This document shows, piece by piece, positions 2,830 through 19,437 of a stretch of 20,000 nucleotides of DNA; position 1 is the first letter of the stretch; every line of letters begins with the position of its first letter. The notes under the pieces are model-generated. The model was not told the DNA's origin. It saw only the letters and a list, made by a program, of their open reading frames with translations, and made no database searches. Origin of the DNA: Neocallimastix lanati (nom. inval.) (taxonomy: Eukaryota; Neocallimastigomycota; Neocallimastigomycetes; Neocallimastigales; Neocallimastigaceae). The stretch lies in NCBI GenBank assembly GCA_016946835.1, contig JACVTC010000039.1, positions 1,025,001-1,045,000 of the forward strand, in the 5' to 3' direction. Made by a program: the position numbers and the translations under genes.

Positions 2830-4278
2830 TTATTTTGTTTTATTAAAATTAATGATTTCATTATTCAATCTAATTAAACAATTAAACCAATTTTCGATGA
2901 TATCATTTTTACTACATCCAATATTTTTTAATTCGGCTTCCATATTTTTATAATATTCAACTAAAATATTAATGTCATCGACCCTTTCTGATATTCTGCT
3001 CTTTTTTCTCCAAATTCCTTTAATTCTCATATGGTAATCATAGTAAGATTTGGATTCTTCAAATTGTATTGTATATATTAATTTATAAAATGAAGGCTTT
3101 TTTACAAATAAATTTTTTAAATAACTGTTATAAGATTCTGAAGCATTATTTGTTATGTGGTCTATATTATTGTAATAATTCCAATATTTTATATTATAGA
3201 TATTTAGAAATGTTTTCTCAAAATAATCTAAAAAATTCAAAAATTGGGAACAGGTAGATTTATATCTCATGCATGCATTTTTAATTTTATTAAAAATATC
3301 AGGTATGTATTCAATATTAATAAAACATAAATTAGAAATGGCTTTATAATAAGTATTTAAAATATTATGATCTTTCACTTCCTTGTAACATAATTTATTT
3401 TTTTTTGTCATTAATAATCTTTTATAATGCCAAAAACAATATTTAATATTTATATTGGGAAAAATATTTTCCACTGCATTAGATATTCCTTTTTCAAAAT
3501 CACAATGAAAAATTTTTTCTGAGAAATTAATATTTGCATTATATTTAATTATATTTTTTTTTATTTCATTAAATAATATTTCGTAAGTTATTTGTTCTTT
3601 GTTTTTTAATATTGACATGGAAGTAGTGTAAAAACAATTTAATTCTGTAACATAAGTTCTGGTAATGAATACTTGATAACTATTAGTTGGAGCTATTAAA
3701 AATGTACCATCAGCAAATATATGTTTATTCTCCATAAATAATTTTGCTTGGAATGGTGATTGAAAAATTATTATATTAGAATTTTTGAATATCATAAAGT
3801 ATTCACCTCTTATTGTTTTATAATATTCAGATACATTAGGAACTTCATCTAATGTTTTTACATTAGGAAATAATTGTTTGTTTTTATATCTTGTTATTTG
3901 GGATTTAATTGTTTTATATTCAGGGCATATATATCCTATTTCTTGAGAAATTTTATCAAATATGCGTTTTGATTTTATATCAGAAGGAATCAAACTTTTT
4001 TTTATTTCATCTTTAATTTTATGTTTTATTAATGATTTGGATGCATTAATTTCATTACCAGGATGATTATGTGAAGAATCATAATTTAAAACCTCTTTAT
4101 TATCATTTAAAATAATAAAAGACTTACATTTATTTAATGTTTTATATTCTGTACATCTATATATTTTTGTATTATCTTTTTTTAATTTTGAAAAATTATA
4201 TTTAAATTTTCGATCTATAATTATTTGCTCTTTTCCTCGATTTGTTTCACTTATATCAATTTTTAGATTTCCCTCCAT
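2830..4278 (-). CDS. FLYWCH zinc-finger and MULE-type transposase-like protein
   Basis: Intronless ORF of 482 aa, starting at the ATG at 4278-4276; the TTG codon just before it is in frame but an unlikely start. Residues about 18-75 look like a FLYWCH-type zinc finger: a tyrosine-rich N part, C42, C51 and the ending H70-N-H72-P. Residues about 155-390 look like a MULE (Mutator-like) transposase core. Candidate DDE residues are D190 in the motif ADGTF, D260 in HCDFE and E381 in NNASESYN, with the family CxxWH-type signature (C281, W283, H284) between the last two. No SWIM finger is evident at the C terminus. Family knowledge: such proteins bind element ends and catalyse cut-and-paste transposition, and some are domesticated as transcription regulators. 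The frame is unbroken and the candidate catalytic residues are present, so it may be active or recently active. The domain call is by motif recognition; I could not find flanking terminal inverted repeats. Confidence 0.82.
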   Translation of the reverse strand: MEGNLKIDISETNRGKEQIIIDRKFKYNFSKLKKDNTKIYRCTEYKTLNKCKSFIILNDNKEVLNYDSSHNHPGNEINASKSLIKHKIKDEIKKSLIPSDIKSKRIFDKISQEIGYICPEYKTIKSQITRYKNKQLFPNVKTLDEVPNVSEYYKTIRGEYFMIFKNSNIIIFQSPFQAKLFMENKHIFADGTFLIAPTNSYQVFITRTYVTELNCFYTTSMSILKNKEQITYEILFNEIKKNIIKYNANINFSEKIFHCDFEKGISNAVENIFPNINIKYCFWHYKRLLMTKKNKLCYKEVKDHNILNTYYKAISNLCFINIEYIPDIFNKIKNACMRYKSTCSQFLNFLDYFEKTFLNIYNIKYWNYYNNIDHITNNASESYNSYLKNLFVKKPSFYKLIYTIQFEESKSYYDYHMRIKGIWRKKSRISERVDDINILVEYYKNMEAELKNIGCSKNDIIENWFNCLIRLNNEIINFNKTK

Positions 4279-4360
4279 CAAAATTTTTAATATAAATATT
4301 AATAAATATGAAATATTTATTTTTTATTTTTTATTTAATATGTATTTTCAATTTTTTTAA

Positions 4361-6966: not shown

Positions 6967-9900
6967 ATGAATTTCGAAAAAGATTATAATAGAGAAGAGA
7001 AAATTAATTTAGCGAAGAAAAAAGTATGTATTTAATAATTTAATATATTGCTATTAAATGAATATTTAATTTGTGAATTTATTTATTTATTTATATATTT
7101 ATTTATTTATTTATTTATTTATTTATATATAATATGAAGTTGAAAAAATATCGTAAAAACCATTATGTTTCTTCTAGTGAAACAAGTCAGGTAATATATA
7201 TATATATATATATAATATTAATTTATCTTAATTTGATTGAAATTAATGAATTTAAATATATATATGTATATAAATTATTAATTTCATACAAAAGGAATCT
7301 TTAAATTCTGATAGTATTCAAAGTAAGTTATTTAACGTTTTTAATCTATTATTAATATTTATTATAATAATTAATTAGTTATTACTTTATTAATAATAAT
7401 AATAATTTAAATTTTCATATTTAATAATAAAAGGCCAATCATTTTCTATTCCTGCAACTCCAAATGTTAATACTAATGTTAGTAAATTATCACCATTATC
7501 TTATCAAATGAACAGTGCTATAACGACTTCTTCTCAAAATAATACTGTTTCGGTCACAAATAATATAAATAAGACTCTATTATATAATACAAATGAAGTA
7601 TCACAAACAGATTTTAATGCAAATACTACAAATTCAAATACTTTGAATTCTACATCGGAAAATGTTTATCAAACAAATTTAACTGATAATTCGATGAATG
7701 ATACAAATTCAAATAATTACTTATATAATACTAGTATTAATTCATATCAAACAAATTTAACCAATACTATTACTGATAATAGTGGTAATACAATTAATAC
7801 TACCAATGCAAATTATATGGTTGATGCTTCTCAAAACAATAATTATTATTCTTCTCCAAATACTCAGAATACTTTTTCTTATCAAACAAATGTCCAAAGC
7901 AGTTATTATCCAATGGATAGTACTGGAAATAATTATTCTTATAATTCAACAAATCCAGTATTAGAAGAAAAAAAATCTACAGAGTCAAGATCATCGATTA
8001 GATCTGGAATATCGGGCTTCGTTGGTTCAATGTTTAAAAATATTATAGATGCAGCAGCACCTCCAATTGCACCAGAATATTTGCAAAAGCATAAAAGTAG
8101 TCATAATAGTAGTGTAAATTCATTAGAAAATGAAAATGATAATGGAATGAGTAATAATTATTTAGTTAATAATAAAACTAATAATACTGATGGAATAAAT
8201 AATAACAATAATACTACAACAAATTCTACAAGTAATCCTAGTGCAACAGCTCAGGTCGAACCAATCAAAAATGAAGAACCGGAATATATGAAAAATCTTA
8301 ATAATTCAAATAATAGTAATACAACTCCATTATTCATTCAAAATAGTAATTTAATTAACAATCAAACCGTTCCACCACCTACATCTGCTGTAGCTCCTAC
8401 TCAGTATATAAGAAGCATGCCAAAAAAGAAAAAGAAGTGGGCAACTTTCAAATATAATGAAGATGAAATTGTTGTTGATAGAGAAAATTATTCAAAGAAT
8501 CCAGCAAATGCAATTTCATTAAAGGATTATATGGATCAACAACAACAAAAGCAACAAACTAATGATACGAAGAAACCAACTAATGAAAGTGAATTACCAG
8601 ATCCTCCAAAATCAAATTCATTTATGTTGCCAAAGCAAACTACCGATACCATTAATACAAATATGTTTGTTCCTCCTCCACCAAAAATAGAAACAACAGA
8701 TATTTCTAGCGGAGCTCCTATTATTTTATCACCAAAAGCTAATATAACTACATCAAATCAAACTACATCAAATCATATTACCTCAAATACTACTACGTCG
8801 ATCACATTATCACCAAATACTAGTATTTTTAATTTTAATAAATCACCAATTCAAACTGTCCCTTCATCAAAGGCAGAATCAAATATTAATTCAACTTCAA
8901 TACCACCACCCCCAAAAGCTGTTTCAAGTATTGAAACAACTTCAACACCACCCCCAAAAGCTATTTCAAGTATTGAATCAACTGCAACACCACCACCACA
9001 AATAGATAACTCAATTGTATCATCATTAATGGTAGAAACTAATAATGCTAATTTAACTACTACACCACCACCACCAATGGTTGGAAATGATATACACTCA
9101 TCATCACTACCTCCACCACCAAAAACAGGTACATATAATATTAGAGCCACTCCAACTCCACCACCTCCAAAAACTTCGAGTTTCAAAGGATTTAGTGTTC
9201 CTTCTCCTGTAAATGCTGGGTTCAATATTCCAACACCGTCATATCCAACTGCTACTTCAACTTATGGGTCATCATTCGTACCAGCAGTAAACAATTTGAA
9301 TAATTTAAGTGCAGATAATCAAATTTATAATACAGCAACGGTAATTCAAGATGAAAAAGAAGATGTAAACCGAAATAATAGTATTGATATAAATTTCAAT
9401 AATCCATCAGTTGTGGGTTTCATTGAAGAAAATGATAACATTTTACTCTCGTCACCACATATTGATAGTTCAGTAATGAGAAATCATAATAAACGTATTA
9501 ATCCAAAACTTCATAGTAAAACATCATTTTCATCATTAATTAAAAATCCAGATGTAATTGAGTTAACTAGTAGCAGCAATGTTACAACCCCAATTGATAA
9601 ATCAGAGGTATATAGTAATACTAGTGATTTATTCAATTCAACTGGAAATGAAAATAATTCATCTATAAATAATAACACAAGCTCTGTAATGGAATTTACA
9701 AATAATCCTGGTTCGTAAGAAATAATCAGAAATTTATAAATAAAATTAAATTTTTTATATTAATTTTATAATTTTTGAATATATATATTTAAATAGGTAA
9801 TGAAAATTTAAGTGATATTTTATTGAATAATCATTTAAAGGGAAAAAAGAAAACAAAAAAACGTTTTTCTGTTCCTTTAACTGATATTATGGCAAGTCCA

Positions 9901-12900
9901 TTTGGTGTTCATCCAAAAGTTAGTACTAAAATTAATGAAGCTACAGAAAATAAATTAAATGAAAATGTATCTTTTGATTTAGAGCCTGTATCAGTGACAG
10001 ATAGTGCTAAGAATGATAGCTATTCTGAAACAATTTCTCCTGATGACACTTCAAGTATATTTGGTGTCTCAAGAAAGAATAACGAAATACCTGAAAGCTC
10101 ATCATTAAATAAATCTTTTGTTCCAAAAGATGAATCCATTGATGGTGAAGAGTCACCTTCTGTTGTTGTTAAAAATAAACCCTCAAATAATAGTTTATTA
10201 TTTGCTTCAAATGCTGATGGATCTAATAATAATACTAATATAATGACAGAAATGCAAAGTAATAATAATAATGATCTTCCTTATAATTTAATTAATGATT
10301 TAGAAAATGTAAATATTTCTGAAAATAGTAAATCGAAAAAGACACCATTTAATAAAGATATTAGTCTCGTTTCTCCAGAAAAATTGAAAGAAATGTGTGA
10401 TATTCCATTAGATGAAACTATTCCAGAAAAATCAACAAGACAGTTATTTACAGATAAAGCTAAAAATATTATTTCTGGTATGTTCCCATTACGAGATAAT
10501 AAAATTGATGAAAGTGTTGGAACATTAAAGAATTCAGCCATTAATCCACCTCTAGAAAATAAGTCACATGAAACTTCTAACAATTTAGATAAGATCAACA
10601 AACCTGATAATAGTGCTATATTGAAGCCATCATTTAAAAATGAAGTTGAGCAAAATGTATTATTTACGGGTTCAGCTAATAATGATAGTCAAGGATTTTC
10701 TATTAATCATTTTGATATTAAGGGTGATGAAAGATCAAGTTCTAATCCATTATCTATCAATACTTCTGATACACCAAAGACAGAGCAATTGTTTACTACT
10801 CCGACAAAACAAAAAAAGATCAGTATTTTATATTCTTCTAACATTGAAACAGCTAGTAGTTTATTTAGCGACGATAATAAATCAGATAATAATCAACCAG
10901 GTGGTGAGTTCATATCATTTATAAATCAAGATAATAATAATAATAAAGCTGAATTTGCTATTTCTCAACCACAAGATAATAATATACCATTATATGGTAA
11001 TCAATCTGAACAAAACAATACTCAAATTAATAATAATAATATTCCATTCATTATCAATGATAGTACTGATATAAATGATAGTAGTGGATTTTATAACCAA
11101 AATCAAAAAAATTCAATTCCATTCTTAACTTCAGATAATAATAGTTCAATTGGATATAGTAGTGATATATATAATCAAAGTAGTCCAGCAAAATTTTATA
11201 TTTCAAGTGAAAATGCAACTCCTATAAATAGTAATATATATAATAATTATGATTCTCCATTCGCAATGTCTGGAACCTCATCCCCAATTAAGAATGAAAT
11301 TAATGCAACTATTTCTTCAAATATTTCTTCTCCATTAAAAACCGAAGTTGTTAATCATAATGAAAAAATATCATCCTTTAATTCACAAACTACATCACCA
11401 ATTCATAATGAAACACCAAGTCAAATTGAAAATATTCCATTTAATTTAAACAGTACAAGTTCAGTTCAATCCAATAATCAAAATAATGAATTCCCATTCT
11501 TTAATATAGAAACTAGTAATATTCAAAATGAATCTTTCCCAACATTCACTTCTTCTAATCAAGATAATAATATTCCATTAAATATGGAGGATCAAATAAA
11601 AAATGAGCAGAGTAGTTCTAATTTATTTAATAACTTAGACAATACTAACAATCAACATCCATTGAGTCCACAAACTGAAAATAAAAATACAACAGCACTA
11701 TTTGGTAATGAAGTATCTTCATCAAATGTATTTGATACATATTCCAATCAAAACAACACCAATACTAATTTCTTTGACAGTAATAATCAAGGAAATAATA
11801 ATAGTGGAAATTGGTTTGAACAGTTTTCTCAAAGTAACGATTCATTGGTAATATCTGAAATTTTAAAATTTAATTTTTGAAAAAATTTAATATTCGTATA
11901 TATATATTCATACGCATTTTATATTTATTTTATTTTATTATTTTTTATTTTATTAATAAAAAATATATTAATTTATGTTAATAAACTATAAAATATTTAA
12001 AAAGGTTAATAATAAAGTTAGTCATCTAAAAGAAAAAGAAGGTATATAATATTAATTATTGTATATATATATATTTTTAAAAAAATGATAACTTATTTTT
12101 TTTTTTTTTCTTTATTGAAGAAAAAACAACTTTACCAAAACTGGAAGAAAAAGAATTAACAAATGAAAAATTAGAAGAAAAAGAGATTCCACAATTCATT
12201 GAAAATAATAATGCTAATCATCAAGAAAAATTAATAAATGATAATAAAATTGAAGAACAATTAAATAGTACAGAAATAGAGGCTGAACAAAGATTAGCTA
12301 AAGAAGTTGTAGATGATAAGGAATTATTAAAATTAAAGGAAGATTTAAAAAAGACTAATAAGATAATAGATGATAATACCTTAGTTATTAGCAAGTTAAA
12401 ATCACAAATTGAAGAACAAAAGCGACAAAATAATAGTTTAAATGATAAACTTGAATCAGTAGAAAATGAAAATAAAGAAAAAATTGAGAATATCAAGCAA
12501 AATGAAAAAACAATTAATTATTTGAATTCCTTAATAAAAATGAAAGATCAACAAATTGATTTATTAAAGGAAGAAAATGATAATGATAGTAAAAATAAAG
12601 AAAGTTCAAATGAAATAAATAAAATAAATAATATCTTAAAGAAAAAAATGGAAATAATTGAAAAATTAACCATTGATAAGGAAAATTTAAAGAATGAAAA
12701 TAATAAACAAAAACAATTGCTTGAAGCTAAAGAAAATGAACTAAGTATTTGCCAAAATAAGATTAATGAACTTAATGATGAAATAAATAAATTTTCATCG
12801 TCATCAGATATTATTAATAATAAAATGCAAGAATTTTCGAATCAAATTCAAGAATTGCAATCAGTAATAAATGAAAAAGATAAACAGAAAGATGAATTAT

Positions 12901-13521
12901 TAAAGGAAAGACAATTAATTGAATCTAAATCCAAGGAACATTTAGATGAATTGGAAGATTCAAAGAAATCTTATATACAACTTCAAAATAATTTTAGTAT
13001 TTTGCAAGAAGAGAATAAAAAAAGTAAGGAACGTAATACTACGTTAGAACAAGAAATGTTACATATGAAGAATAAGTATGAAGAAATAGAAAAAGGTAAT
13101 AATGAAGAGAAAGAATTTATACAAAAAATGAAGGAATTATATCCAAGTTTAGCTTTAAATGAAATTATGAATAAAATTACAAATTTATCCTCTTCAAAAG
13201 AAGTTACTCATCCAAATCCGATTGATCCTTTAAAGACAGATAATATTCAAGAATTAAATTGGAATGATATTGGTAATACTGATAATAAAGAAGAATTTGA
13301 AAATTATATTAAAGATACTAATATAAATGCTTTTACACCACAGCCAATGATTCTTCCAATGTCAGATGAACAAATTAAAAAATATGAAATTGAAAATAAT
13401 GAATTAAAGGAAAAATGTAGTTCTTATGAAGAAGCTATGGAAAAAAATAAAGCTGAAATTGAATATTTAAAAAATATTATCAAAAATGAAAAGCCTATGG
13501 AGTATGCTCAATTAACAACTG

Positions 13522-13565
<44 letters not shown>

Positions 13566-13696
13566 CATAGTTTAATTGAAATTATTTCTCAGTTAACAAA
13601 GTAAATATTGTTTAAATATTATTTATTTCATTTTATTTATAATTTATAATTATTTATTTATTTATTTATTTTATTTTATTTTATTTTATTTTATTT

Positions 13697-13748
<52 letters not shown>

Positions 13749-14348
13749 ATTATATATATTTCATTAAAAAAAATGAAATATTATAAAACTTTTATGATAT
13801 TTATTAATTTTTATTTATGATAATAAATAATAATGATAATAATAATAATAAATAGGGATAACCAAGCTTTAAGTTTACAAATTCAAGAACTTAGACATGA
13901 AGTTGATTCAAATAATCAAGTAGGTACTTCATTAGCCTATTCCAATCAGCCATATGATAATATAAATACATCTTCTAGTTTTTCATATCCAACCTATATG
14001 GATACCACACAACCACCAACTGATTTGATGTTTAACCAATTATATCCTGGTGGTAGTATTAGTGGAAGTAAAAGTATAGAAAACATACAAGGATTAGGCA
14101 CTTACACATCTCCATATGGAAACCTTGTAGATAATAGAATTTATGACCAGTCAGAGTTTGATATGAATTACTATGACAGTAGACCATTAAGTACTTTTAC
14201 TGGTCCTTCTTCAACCTTTGATCATCAACAATTATTAAACCAATTAAATGAAAGAGAAAAGAATGAAAGAAACAAAATGCTAGCTAATTCCAGCATTAAT
14301 CCAAGCCAAACTGATATATTATATAAGTATAGTACTTTTAATTATTAA
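6967..14348 (+). CDS. Large golgin-like coiled-coil protein (GM130-like N-terminal motif)
   Basis: Eight exons fit splice signals and frame: 6967-7023, 7140-7190, 7295-7322, 7434-9714, 9813-11847, 12005-12041, 12121-13600 and 13856-14348. They sum to 6462 nt, about 2153 aa. Donors are GTATGT, GTAATA, GTAAGT, GTAAGA, GTAATA, GTATAT and GTAAAT; acceptors are AAG except TAG in the last. Residues 10-26 (EEKINLAKKKLKKYRKN) resemble the basic N-terminal helix of vertebrate GM130, which binds p115 and importin-alpha. Residues about 46-1484 are low-complexity and probably disordered: Asn/Ser/Thr-rich, with a KKKKKW basic patch near 375, proline-rich repeats at about 524-630, a second basic patch KGKKKTKKRF near 814 and repeated I-P-F/L motifs in exon 5. 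Residues about 1490-1960 are a Glu/Lys/Asn-rich coiled coil, ending in 14 Asn. A short coiled coil (NQALSLQIQELRHEV) and a Tyr/Ser-rich tail close the protein. Inferred role: Golgi tethering on the cytosolic face, as for GM130 or yeast Bug1/Rud3. Only the N-terminal motif and architecture support this; a generic coiled-coil scaffold is the alternative. The exon chain is firm, the name less so. Confidence 0.72.
8896..9005 (+). repeat. Tandem 42-45 bp coding repeat, proline-rich
   Basis: Inside exon 4 of the golgin-like gene. Two successive units encode SIPPPPKAVSSIETT and STPPPKAISSIEST, followed by a partial third (ATPPPQ). Further PPPP blocks follow to about 9170 without the full unit. Proline runs of this form are typical ligands of profilin, SH3, WW or EVH1 domains, but no partner is identifiable here. 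Confidence 0.85.
13524..13565 (+). repeat. (AAT)14 poly-Asn tract in the golgin-like gene
   Basis: Fourteen consecutive AAT codons in frame, at residues about 1965-1978, between the end of the long coiled coil and the exon 7 donor. It is a trinucleotide microsatellite that stays in frame and is likely length-variable between strains. Confidence 0.93.
13649..13744. repeat. ATTT / TTTTA / T46 low-complexity tract in intron 7
   Basis: Within the 255-nt last intron (13601-13855) of the golgin-like gene, ATTT units pass into (TTTTA)n at about 13666-13698 and then into 46 consecutive T (13699-13744). The pentanucleotide is the same one that builds the block at 1-1970. The tract accounts for this intron being the longest of the gene; its true length may be misassembled. 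Confidence 0.93.
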
Positions 14349-15926: not shown

Positions 15927-16475
15927 ATGTCAGCTGCAGTTAAATGTTTAAGATTTAAAGAACCTGAAGTTGTTGATTATATAGTATATAAGTATACTGA
16001 TTCTGAAAGTACAAAAGAAGATGAAAAAGAAGAAACAGAAGCAAAACTAAATGAAACAAATGAAACCGAGATAGAACCAGATTCAAAGGAAGGAACATTA
16101 TTTTCTGAAAATATAATTAAAAATTCAATTGAAATATTAAATAAGGATCAAAATAGTAGAAATATAGAAAAAATTAACAAGAATGAAAATGAGGATAAAA
16201 ATGAGGGTAAACATGAAGATGAAAATGAAAATAATAATGAAACTCTTATTAAAGACAATAAATCAGAAAGTATTGGAAGTGAAAATATAAATGAAAAAGA
16301 TAATTATAATAAATCAGATGGAAGTAATGAGAATAGGCCATATGAATCTACAGAAAGTTTTGTAATATATAAGGATGGAGACAGTGCAATTATTGAAGGT
16401 ATTCCACAGATTAAAATTAATTTAAGTATTAGTAGAGATAATCTTTTAGCTAGTCAAGCAGCAAATAATAACGAT

Positions 16476-16517
<42 letters not shown>

Positions 16518-16532
16518 AATAATAATAATAAC

Positions 16533-16577
<45 letters not shown>

Positions 16578-19437
16578 TTAAATACAAAAAATTTTATACA
16601 AAATATTGAAAATAATTCAGTTAACAAAAATAGTAATTCATCTTCAAATTTAAATGATTCAAATAAAAATAAATCATTGAGTAAAAATAGTTTATTAGGT
16701 AATTCTAATAAAATAAATAATGACAGTAATAATCTCAGTATACCTCTCTCTAAAAAAAGAAGCACTAATAGTTTAATAAGTATAAGTGATTATAGTAGTA
16801 GATCAAGTCTTTTTAATGTACTTGAAGGTAATACAAGGAGTCAAAAGGCTATTTCCGATAGAAATATGGAAAGAATGCAACAATCACAAAAGAAAATATT
16901 AGAGAGAAAATTAGTGAGAGAAAAGTTAAGAAGTCAAATGAATGAAAAAAAAAAAATTAAGTCACCAGATGAAGTATCTATTAATGGTAATGATAATTTA
17001 GAAAATAAGAATAAAGAAGATAGTATAAATAATGAAAAAATAAAGTTAGAATTGAGAGAAAATCCTTTAACAAAAAGTTCTTCATTATCAAACTCTGATG
17101 AAAATTCAGATACAATTGTAAACTCTAATCCTAATACTCTTCGAATTAAATCAAATGATTCATCAAAAATAACAAAGGAAGATGAAGATGTTAATAAAAT
17201 TTTAAAAGAAGTAAAAATTACAAAAAAAGAAAAGAATTTTTTTATATTAATTACTAATTTTTAATAATTATATATTATTAATATTGAAACTTATAATAAT
17301 AATAAGAATAATTATATATATAATAGTAATAACAATAACAATAACAATATTTGTATAAATATTAATAAATATTACTACTTAATTATATAAATAATATTAA
17401 AAAAGGTTAGTGAAACTTACTTTCTGGAAGAGAATTCAAATATTAATCTTGATAATATACTTGAAATTCTTGGCCAAACTGAAATAGATACAATCGATGA
17501 TACCGTGGGCATGGAGTAAACAAATAAATAAATAAATAATAATAAAAATTATTATAATAATAATATATATTTTAATATATATAATAAAATAGAGTCTTAG
17601 AAACAGCAACTCATATGAATAATTACGAGCATGGAGCCATTTTTCGATTACAATATAATAATAGTAATTGTATCATGAAGATTATTCCTTTTGATCCCGA
17701 AAAAAATAATTTAGATTTAAATACAAATTTAGATTCAAATAATAATTTCGAAAATAATCAAGTATCGCTAAAGATAATTTTACAAGAAATCATTGCTATG
17801 AAAATTTTATCATGCTTTCATACTTCAGGTGAAATAACATTAAACAAAAGTGAAGTGAATCAAGTCACATCAAAAAATGAAGATAAAAAAATAAATAATG
17901 AAAGGAAAGTTTTGGCTTTTGCACAACCAGAAGGGTATTTAATATATAAATATTCATAAAAATAATTTACATATGCATATAATTAAATGATAATAAAAAA
18001 ATGTTATAATTTATATTAATAATTATATAAATATATGCTAATTGCATTATTAAAAATAATTAATTTAATAAATAAAAAATTATAATAATTACTTAATAAT
18101 AATTAATAAAGAATGTGGATTTGTAAGGGTTCAAAATGTCAAGTATTAAACTATGAATTTCAGAATTATCAATTAAGTAATTTTTTTTTTTTTTTTTTAA
18201 TTTTAATTTTAATTGATAACACATTGAAGTTAACATCAATATAAAAATACATAATAACCATAATCATAACAATCAATTATAATAATATCATTAATTTTAG
18301 ATGAATTTAGTCAGGATCAATATTTTTTAGTCACTCTTTTCAATAATGAAGGAGAAATTGTTAATTCATCTAATAATTTAGAGAGATCATTAGACCAAAT
18401 TAAATCAGTTTTATGGCAAATTTGTTATTCTTTAGCACTAGCAGAAGAAGTATTAGGATTTGAACATAGGTATACATATTTTTTTTTTAAAAATTTTTAA
18501 AAATAATTTAAATATACATTAATATAAATTAAACAACTTTATTAAACCAAATTAAATATATACATATATGATTAAATAAAAATAAATAAATAAAAAGTGA
18601 ATTATATCCTGAATATATATTAATTGAAGATGTTCCAAGGGAAGAATTAATATATAAATTAAATGAAAGAGAAATTAAAAAAGATAACTTTGGTGTTAAA
18701 GCAACGATATTAGATTATTCAAGATCACGACTTGAATATAGTATGTATTTATAATATAATTAAACAAATATAATAAAAAATAACAATAATGAAAACCTCA
18801 AAAAACGAACAAACAAACGAACAAATAAACAAACAGACAAAAAAAAGAATATATTAAATATTAAAATTAAACTAAATTAAAAATTAATTATATTAATAAT
18901 TAAAATAGATGGAAAAGTGTATTATTCTGATTTGACTAGTGTATGCTATGATGATCCGTCAAGTACATTTCATTTATAAAAAAAATAAAATAATAAATAA
19001 TCATAATCATAATAATATATTAATGTAGTTAATATAGTTGAAGATAGATATTATAGTATTAAATTTAATACATTAACTTTTTTTTATTTTATTTTTTTTT
19101 TTAAAAAATAAAATAAATAGAGAAAAGGAGTTCAGATGATTTGAAGACCGTATTTAATTCAACATTGTATAAAGTTACACCAATTGTTAATAGATCATCT
19201 TTTGCTGATTTAATACAATCTTCTGTATGGATTATTCAATGTGATAAAGAAATGATGAATTGGCTTTATAATAACATGTTAGAGTTTGCAATAAGAGTTG
19301 AATATAATATTAAATCAATGAAAGAAGCTCTAAATGATCCATTTTGGGACCTTTCCAAAGAGAATTGGGAAATGAAAAGAAAAAATTTAACAAACGAATA
19401 TAGTATTAACACTGATAGTGATTGTATTATATTATAG
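15927..19437 (+). CDS. Haspin-family kinase-like protein, predicted pseudokinase
   Basis: Eight exons fit frame and GT-AG signals: 15927-17210, 17406-17515, 17593-17934, 18112-18176, 18301-18469, 18598-18740, 18909-18962 and 19121-19437; 2484 nt, 827 aa. Residues 1-428 are acidic, Asn/Lys-rich and disordered, with 34 consecutive Asn. From about 430 the sequence follows the haspin kinase domain: LDNILEILGQ before the N-lobe, a weak glycine loop (NNYEHGAIF), the lysine of IMKII (K494), the alpha-C glutamate of LQEII (E530), WICKGSKCQVL, SQDQYFLV, SLALAEEVLGFEH, then ILDYSRSRLE, where D696 matches the DYT aspartate that replaces DFG in haspins. The catalytic loop reads HSELYPEYILI (656-666) where active haspins have HRDLHWGN: the catalytic Asp is Glu and the metal-binding Asn is Tyr. 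The C-lobe after residue 720 is poorly conserved. Known role of active haspin: nuclear phosphorylation of histone H3 Thr3 in mitosis. Catalysis is doubtful here; a binding or scaffold role is possible. Family assignment is fairly secure. Confidence 0.8.
16464..16577 (+). repeat. Poly-Asn codon repeat in the haspin-like gene
   Basis: Three Asn, one Asp and then 34 uninterrupted Asn codons. The 34 are ordered as 13 AAC, 5 AAT, 1 AAC and 15 AAT rather than mixed, which shows expansion of two separate trinucleotide blocks by slippage. It lies in the disordered N-terminal half of the protein. Confidence 0.95.

Follow-up and report, generated by a model that had tools for sequence, protein, structure and literature searches.

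A collinear pair of haspin-family genes with degraded catalytic motifs in Neocallimastix lanati, probably encoding pseudokinases

Given a haspin-like catalytic loop in which HRD is replaced by HSE, the question raised by this locus is whether it encodes a pseudokinase, a kinase with altered chemistry, a decaying pseudogene or a protein that exists only in a faulty gene model. The window, i.e., the whole 20,000-nucleotide stretch of DNA analysed here, corresponds to C323:1025001-1045000 of a 199-Mb assembly of 762 contigs, which was the genome searched. An earlier sequence-only reading had assigned the haspin feature to 18301..18740. The feature was indeed located there, but the gene is longer, running from 15927 to 19437 on the + strand; in the spliced model it comprises eight exons with a product of 827 amino acids, and all seven introns start with GT and end with AG. 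Its features are as follows.

15927..17210, + strand: exon 1, with the ATG and a long low-complexity N-terminal region (aa 1-428)
17406..17515, + strand: exon 2, starting at aa 429
17593..17934, + strand: exon 3, N-lobe, with the degraded Gly-rich loop NNYEHG (aa 474-479), the VAIK-type K494 (CIMK) and the alpha-C E530
18112..18176, + strand: exon 4, 65 nt, with MWICKGSKCQVLNYEFQNYQL in the used frame and the haspin-like GFVRVQNVK in the +1 frame
18301..18469, + strand: exon 5, hinge to alpha-E, LWQICYSLALAEEVLGFEH; its last two bases are the first two of the HRD-Arg codon
18470-18597, + strand: phase-2 intron of 128 nt (114 nt in the paralogue), cutting the catalytic loop in two
18598..18740, + strand: exon 6, (S)ELYPEYILIEDV..., followed by the DYT-type ILDYSRSRLEY with D696
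18909..18962, + strand: exon 7, GKVYYSDLTSVCYDDPS
19121..19437, + strand: exon 8, the C-terminal part past the PF12330-matched stretch, with the stop codon

The window protein scored 64.6 bits with PF12330 (Haspin_kinase), for which the curated cut-off is 25 (residues 376-713, profile positions 14-267 of 364), and a paralogue on contig C368 scored 44.2 bits with the same profile. In both copies the match ends at profile position 267 of 364, and the alignment is ambiguous past this point, in the region of human D707, D709 and GDGDYQFDIYR (the C-lobe segment that binds the H3 tail). Searching the PDB with the kinase part identified eight distinct sequences, all named haspin, with E-values of 2.3e-11 to 2.1e-10; we take all eight to be the human protein. 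The phmmer comparison with human haspin in PDB 2vuw gave an E-value of 2.3e-11, and 84 of 309 aligned residues were identical. The likeness to haspin lies above chance, as judged from the PF12330 score of 64.6 bits and from the second gene, which has matching exons and phases and a near-identical loop. On this sequence evidence, the window gene is a member of haspin, a protein kinase that marks chromosomes, understood as a fold and sequence family. It has in common with haspin (GSG2; Alk1/Alk2 and Hrk1 in fungi) the VAIK-type Lys, the alpha-C Glu and the FEH ahead of the catalytic loop, and its DYT-type motif is present as DYS, followed by SRLE, whereas HRDLHWGN is replaced by H(S/R)ELYPE(Y/C) and the Gly-rich loop is degraded.

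Splicing from 18469 to 18598 yields GFEHSELYPEYILIEDV, as the sequence-only reading had stated, and the resulting catalytic loop, HSELYPEYIL, aligns without a gap to HRDLHWGNVL of human haspin. In the alignment to PDB 2vuw, human K511, E535 and D687 correspond to K494, E530 and D696, all of which are kept and had been correctly placed in terms of the 827-aa model, and H647 is kept as H656. Human R648-D649-L650-H651-W652-G653-N654 reads S-E-L-Y-P-E-Y in the window protein, with R648 replaced by S657, D649 by E658, H651 by Y660, G653 by E662 and N654 by Y663, which bears out the proposed changes of HRD to HSE and of the loop Asn to Tyr. A degradation additional to these residue changes lies in the Gly-rich loop, where human G491-E-G-V-F-G496 (GEGVFG) corresponds to NNYEHG. 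With two of three Gly-rich-loop glycines and the Asn lost, nucleotide binding of the ordinary kind is less certain than the earlier reading suggested.

An unusual splice or an artefact of the gene model, in which another junction would restore HRD and the Asn, had been named as an alternative, and the substituted residues do lie on either side of the intron. However, the count of splice signals agreed with the earlier remark that the intron has no other AG: intron 18470-18597 contains a single GT (its first two bases) and a single AG (its last two), so that no alternative GT-AG junction exists inside it. ELYPE is encoded within exon 6 in both copies, in the frame that continues to DYSRSRLEY, and a junction shifted upstream would therefore leave it unchanged. 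The paralogue, whose intron sequence is different, has its junction at the same place and is also without the Asp and the Asn, reading H-x-E-L-Y-P-E-(C/Y) as well. The odd splice was rejected on the basis of this shared junction, and an artefact of this kind is hardly credible.

The second copy was identified by searching the genome with the window protein, which returned 12 matches, split evenly between the window gene and C368. The C368 paralogue (223165-227091) matches the window gene in its eight exons and their phases, encodes 816 amino acids with no stop inside, and has the catalytic loop HRELYPECIL. Replacement of Asp by Glu, His by Tyr, Trp by Pro and Gly by Glu is common to both copies, as is the loss of the Asn, while only the window copy has Ser in place of Arg, and the Asn is replaced by Tyr in the window copy but by Cys in the paralogue. 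Neither copy has the GxGxxG motif, which reads NNYEHG in the window protein and KNFEHG in the paralogue with two of the three glycines gone, and neither has HRDLHxGN with its base Asp and metal-binding Asn (HSELYPEY and HRELYPEC, respectively); the VAIK Lys, alpha-C Glu and DYT-type Asp are kept in both (K494, E530, D696 and their equivalents in the paralogue). Exon lengths are equal in six of the eight exons, with exons 1 and 3 differing by 12 and 21 nt, and the exon 1 islands KCLRFKEPEV, IYKDGDSAIIEGIPQI and ISRDNLLASQA are identical in the two copies. The open frames flanking the gene are collinear between C323 and C368 on both sides, and the pair therefore stems from a segmental or genome-scale duplication and not from a retrocopy. 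The losses that the two copies share are most simply explained as older than this collinear duplication.

Decay of the locus into a pseudogene would be compatible with the loss of several canonical residues and with the peptide resembling haspin that exon 4 encodes in its +1 frame. Against it, all eight exons are open, neither copy has an internal stop, and six of eight exon lengths are equal. Between the window copy and the paralogue, 519 residues are identical over 800 aligned codons, and Nei-Gojobori (NG86) dN/dS was 0.39 overall and 0.34 for aa 429-827. In the kinase part (codons 466-827), pN/pS was 0.41 (bootstrap 0.31-0.54). A neutral simulation that kept the numbers and kinds of base changes as observed averaged 0.84 and never fell below 0.54; none of 1000 runs was as low as 0.41. 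Base changes at codon positions 1, 2 and 3 numbered 58, 49 and 91. Both haspin copies are intact and under purifying selection, a pairwise result that shows constraint on the proteins and is silent as to which function is selected. The pseudogene alternative, also raised by the sequence-only reading, was rejected for the window copy and the C368 copy alike, because of the open frames and the purifying selection, and we consider it very improbable.

The +1-frame peptide of exon 4 is haspin-like in both copies (GFVRVQNVK in the window copy and GFVEVQQIK in the paralogue). The used frame, MWIC(K/R)GS... in the two copies, is the sole stop-free frame among the three. The two exons show nine differences in 65 nt, which by codon position favour neither frame, and the +1-frame peptide may reflect either an old frameshift predating the duplication or coincidence. 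The final 25 nt of exon 4 are identical in the window copy (18112-18176) and the paralogue (L001 1383-1447).

In the available text of PMC4718504, a pseudokinase is defined by loss of the HRD-Asp, the beta3 Lys or the DFG-Asp. The HRD-Asp is a Glu in both copies, and both proteins would accordingly count as pseudokinases under that definition, given the kinase fold predicted from the family match. The same excerpt recalls that haspin itself was formerly labelled a pseudokinase and yet is active (PMC4718504). This precedent weakens the pseudokinase reading, as do the retained DYT Asp, Lys and alpha-C Glu. So does the chemistry of the replacement, glutamate being able in principle to serve as a base. 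What appears from the sequence to be the chief rival is therefore an active, lineage-specific kinase with altered chemistry, in which Glu658 would replace the catalytic Asp and the DYT-type Asp696 alone would carry the metal. Such an enzyme would accord with the identity of K494, E530, D696, the Glu and ELYPE in the two copies and with purifying selection on the kinase domain. A conserved active site, however, would not be expected to differ at the Asn position (Tyr, Cys), to lose its Arg in one copy, or to lack two of three Gly-rich-loop glycines in both. An active kinase with altered chemistry thus seems unlikely. Both of these readings had been offered at the outset, and the pseudokinase is favoured because two of the three Gly-rich-loop glycines and the Asn are lost. 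Taken as a whole, the fairly likely explanation is an intact haspin-family pseudokinase gene whose losses predate the duplication, which is kept by selection and acts as a binding scaffold.

A further check that had been proposed was whether a second, canonical haspin exists in the genome, and searches with the profile, the human protein and DNA patterns turned up none. The PF12330 search of the genome gave five hits, all of which were read: the window gene, the C368 gene, and three ordinary kinases (C741, C468 and C68), whose YRDLKLDN or HRDLKLSN loops are intact. With human haspin as the query, both of the two candidates were the window and C368 loci, at weak E-values of 0.09 and 0.67. The coding pattern D-[LF]-H-x-G-N-[VIM]-[LF], which lies 3' of the loop intron, had no match in the genome DNA. 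The shorter pattern D-[LF]-H-x-G-N had 38 matches, compared with 73 for a reversed-pattern control; none of the 30 matches read in frame was a haspin, and the remaining eight are without the following [VIM][LF] codons. Since both degenerate copies were detected, the profile search is able to detect split haspin genes here. A canonical haspin was not found in this assembly, which is a single assembly with some stretches of N. Among viral contigs, 8 and 22 pattern matches were obtained, and among contigs of prokaryotic genomes 57 and 32; no relative was confirmed in either set, where little was expected.

The assembly also contains a near-regular tandem array at C163:2488-51974 (period about 6.2 kb) with nine D-[LF]-H-x-G-N pattern hits. 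Its open frame encodes DFHNGNKERFN together with Asn runs that vary in length, and the same frame occurs at seven places on other contigs.

The search results bear directly on the possibility that a canonical haspin exists but is missing from the assembly, the two copies being an extra degenerate subfamily such as a nematode-like expansion might produce. C. elegans is predicted, according to the accessible part of PMC9277076, to have over eight proteins with a degree of haspin homology, and the present assembly may be incomplete, with some stretches of N. On the other hand, no canonical haspin came to light in the assembly with the profile, the human protein or DNA patterns, while H3, BIR, INCENP and Bub1/Mad3-type loci were detected at no fewer than two places each. 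We regard a missing canonical haspin as decidedly unlikely.

Among the other components of haspin signalling, the histone H3 query gave eight matches at four loci, all four of which start with MARTKQTARKS, and Thr3 is thus kept in four of four. The INCENP Aurora-binding box was detected at two loci, and Mad3_BUB1_I at four loci over the cut-off with a fifth match below it; no Bub1 kinase loop appeared when the 9 kb surrounding each of two of the Mad3_BUB1_I loci were scanned with a simple HxD motif. For WAPL the genome had one hit, a weak one of 29.8 bits; Shugoshin_C had no match in the genome or in any of 14 controls, and its absence is therefore uninformative. YSR, a Pds5-type motif, occurs solely within the kinase domain in both haspin-family proteins, and no motif in favour of a Pds5 link was recognised in them. 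BIR domains gave seven hits in the genome, none with survivin K62 or E65, according to the survivin letters and numbering that we assumed for this comparison. Two genes carry two BIRs each (C112:3369582-3370097 and C135:900379-900892), an architecture that presumably resembles fungal Bir1. In both genes, the K62, E65 and H80 positions read C/H/T in BIR1 and A/G/F in BIR2, with W67, D71 and the zinc ligands all retained. Of the remaining three hits, C279 and C706 are alike; they and C748 carry Thr at the K62 position and Ala at the E65 position. The third position is uncertain in these three, as additional residues precede the final zinc ligand; a direct count from the zinc His would put a His there for C279 and C706 and a Tyr for C748. 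In the available text of PMC9253516, a human survivin mutant with K62, E65 and H80 changed to Ala cannot bind the H3 tail. As the comparison was made against survivin, with assumed letters and numbering, the BIR replacements are a lead rather than a finding.

Under the favoured pseudokinase reading, the haspin protein would no longer phosphorylate H3 Thr3 and would act through binding, most likely as a scaffold at chromatin, cohesin or the centromere, akin to the kinase-independent part of haspin's role. In animals, haspin competes with Wapl for Pds5B and thereby directly aids protection of centromeric cohesion, as described in the part of PMC5743930 that is available. The identical N-terminal islands are candidate docking segments, and the chromosomal passenger complex might be placed by other means, such as a putative Bub1 arm. 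Haspin in this fungus is, judging by its residues, probably a scaffold rather than an enzyme. A broader proposal, which we advance tentatively and consider doubtful, is that the haspin-H3T3ph-Bir1/survivin arm has been lost as a pair of writer and reader, with the haspin body kept as a non-catalytic scaffold. It is suggested by the sole haspins found being pseudokinases and by all BIR hits being without K62 and E65; H80 is also gone in the four domains of the two-BIR genes, where it can be aligned without gaps. H3 Thr3, INCENP and Bub1/Mad3-type genes remain despite the changes in haspin and the BIR domains. An organism whose sole haspins are apparent pseudokinases would be a natural separation-of-function experiment, asking whether haspin can keep its binding role when kinase activity is lost and by what means Aurora B is placed in the absence of H3T3ph.

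Other pseudokinases differ from this case in their genomic setting. VRK3 and IRAK3 have catalytic relatives within the same genome, whereas no canonical haspin was found here. Pseudokinases of the VRK3, IRAK3 and MLKL type are likewise relatives of active kinases that have lost HRD or other catalytic motifs (for VRK3, in the accessible text of PMC9249732), but they belong to kinase families other than that of the window gene. In the BubR1/Mad3-Bub1 pair one paralogue is active, in contrast to the two haspin copies here, both of which are without the catalytic residues. A lineage-specific rise in haspin-related genes is shared with C. elegans, but its hasp-1 and hasp-2, unlike both copies here, retain the known essential residues, as far as the excerpt of PMC9277076 goes. 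In the open-access literature searched, no degenerate haspin is reported from gut fungi. Pseudokinases and haspin are both well known; a lineage in which the sole detectable haspins are pseudokinases seems, as far as the open-access literature searched shows, not to have been described.

Several families were present at two loci each, namely haspin (C323/C368), Bir1-like genes (C112/C135), INCENP-box genes (C62/C446) and PKC-like kinases (C741/C68). These paired loci suggest a large-scale duplication of the genome, on which nothing was found for Neocallimastigomycota in the literature searched. Upstream of the haspin gene, long open frames at 7406-14348 of the window are proline- and asparagine-rich and coiled-coil-like, with no Pfam match over the cut-off; this region is collinear with C368:214635-221759 at 56-74% identity per frame. 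The window also contains a MULE transposase with a FLYWCH zinc finger at 2830-4323 on the - strand (43.8 and 38.6 bits). A second MULE copy, split into two open frames, lies in the opposite orientation about 8 kb upstream (C323:1018367-1019851, + strand), with repeats between the two copies. G+C ranges from 0.06 to 0.31 per kb across the window and falls to 0.056 within about 2 kb of TTTTA/TTTAT-type repeats at 1-2040, where two forward frames are open throughout and the third is broken near 425-522. Abundant dockerins are a mark of Neocallimastigomycota, and, in keeping with an anaerobic gut fungus, to which the low G+C also points, the dockerin/CBM_10 family is large in this genome, with 150 of 150 scored candidates matched among 1440 first-look candidates.
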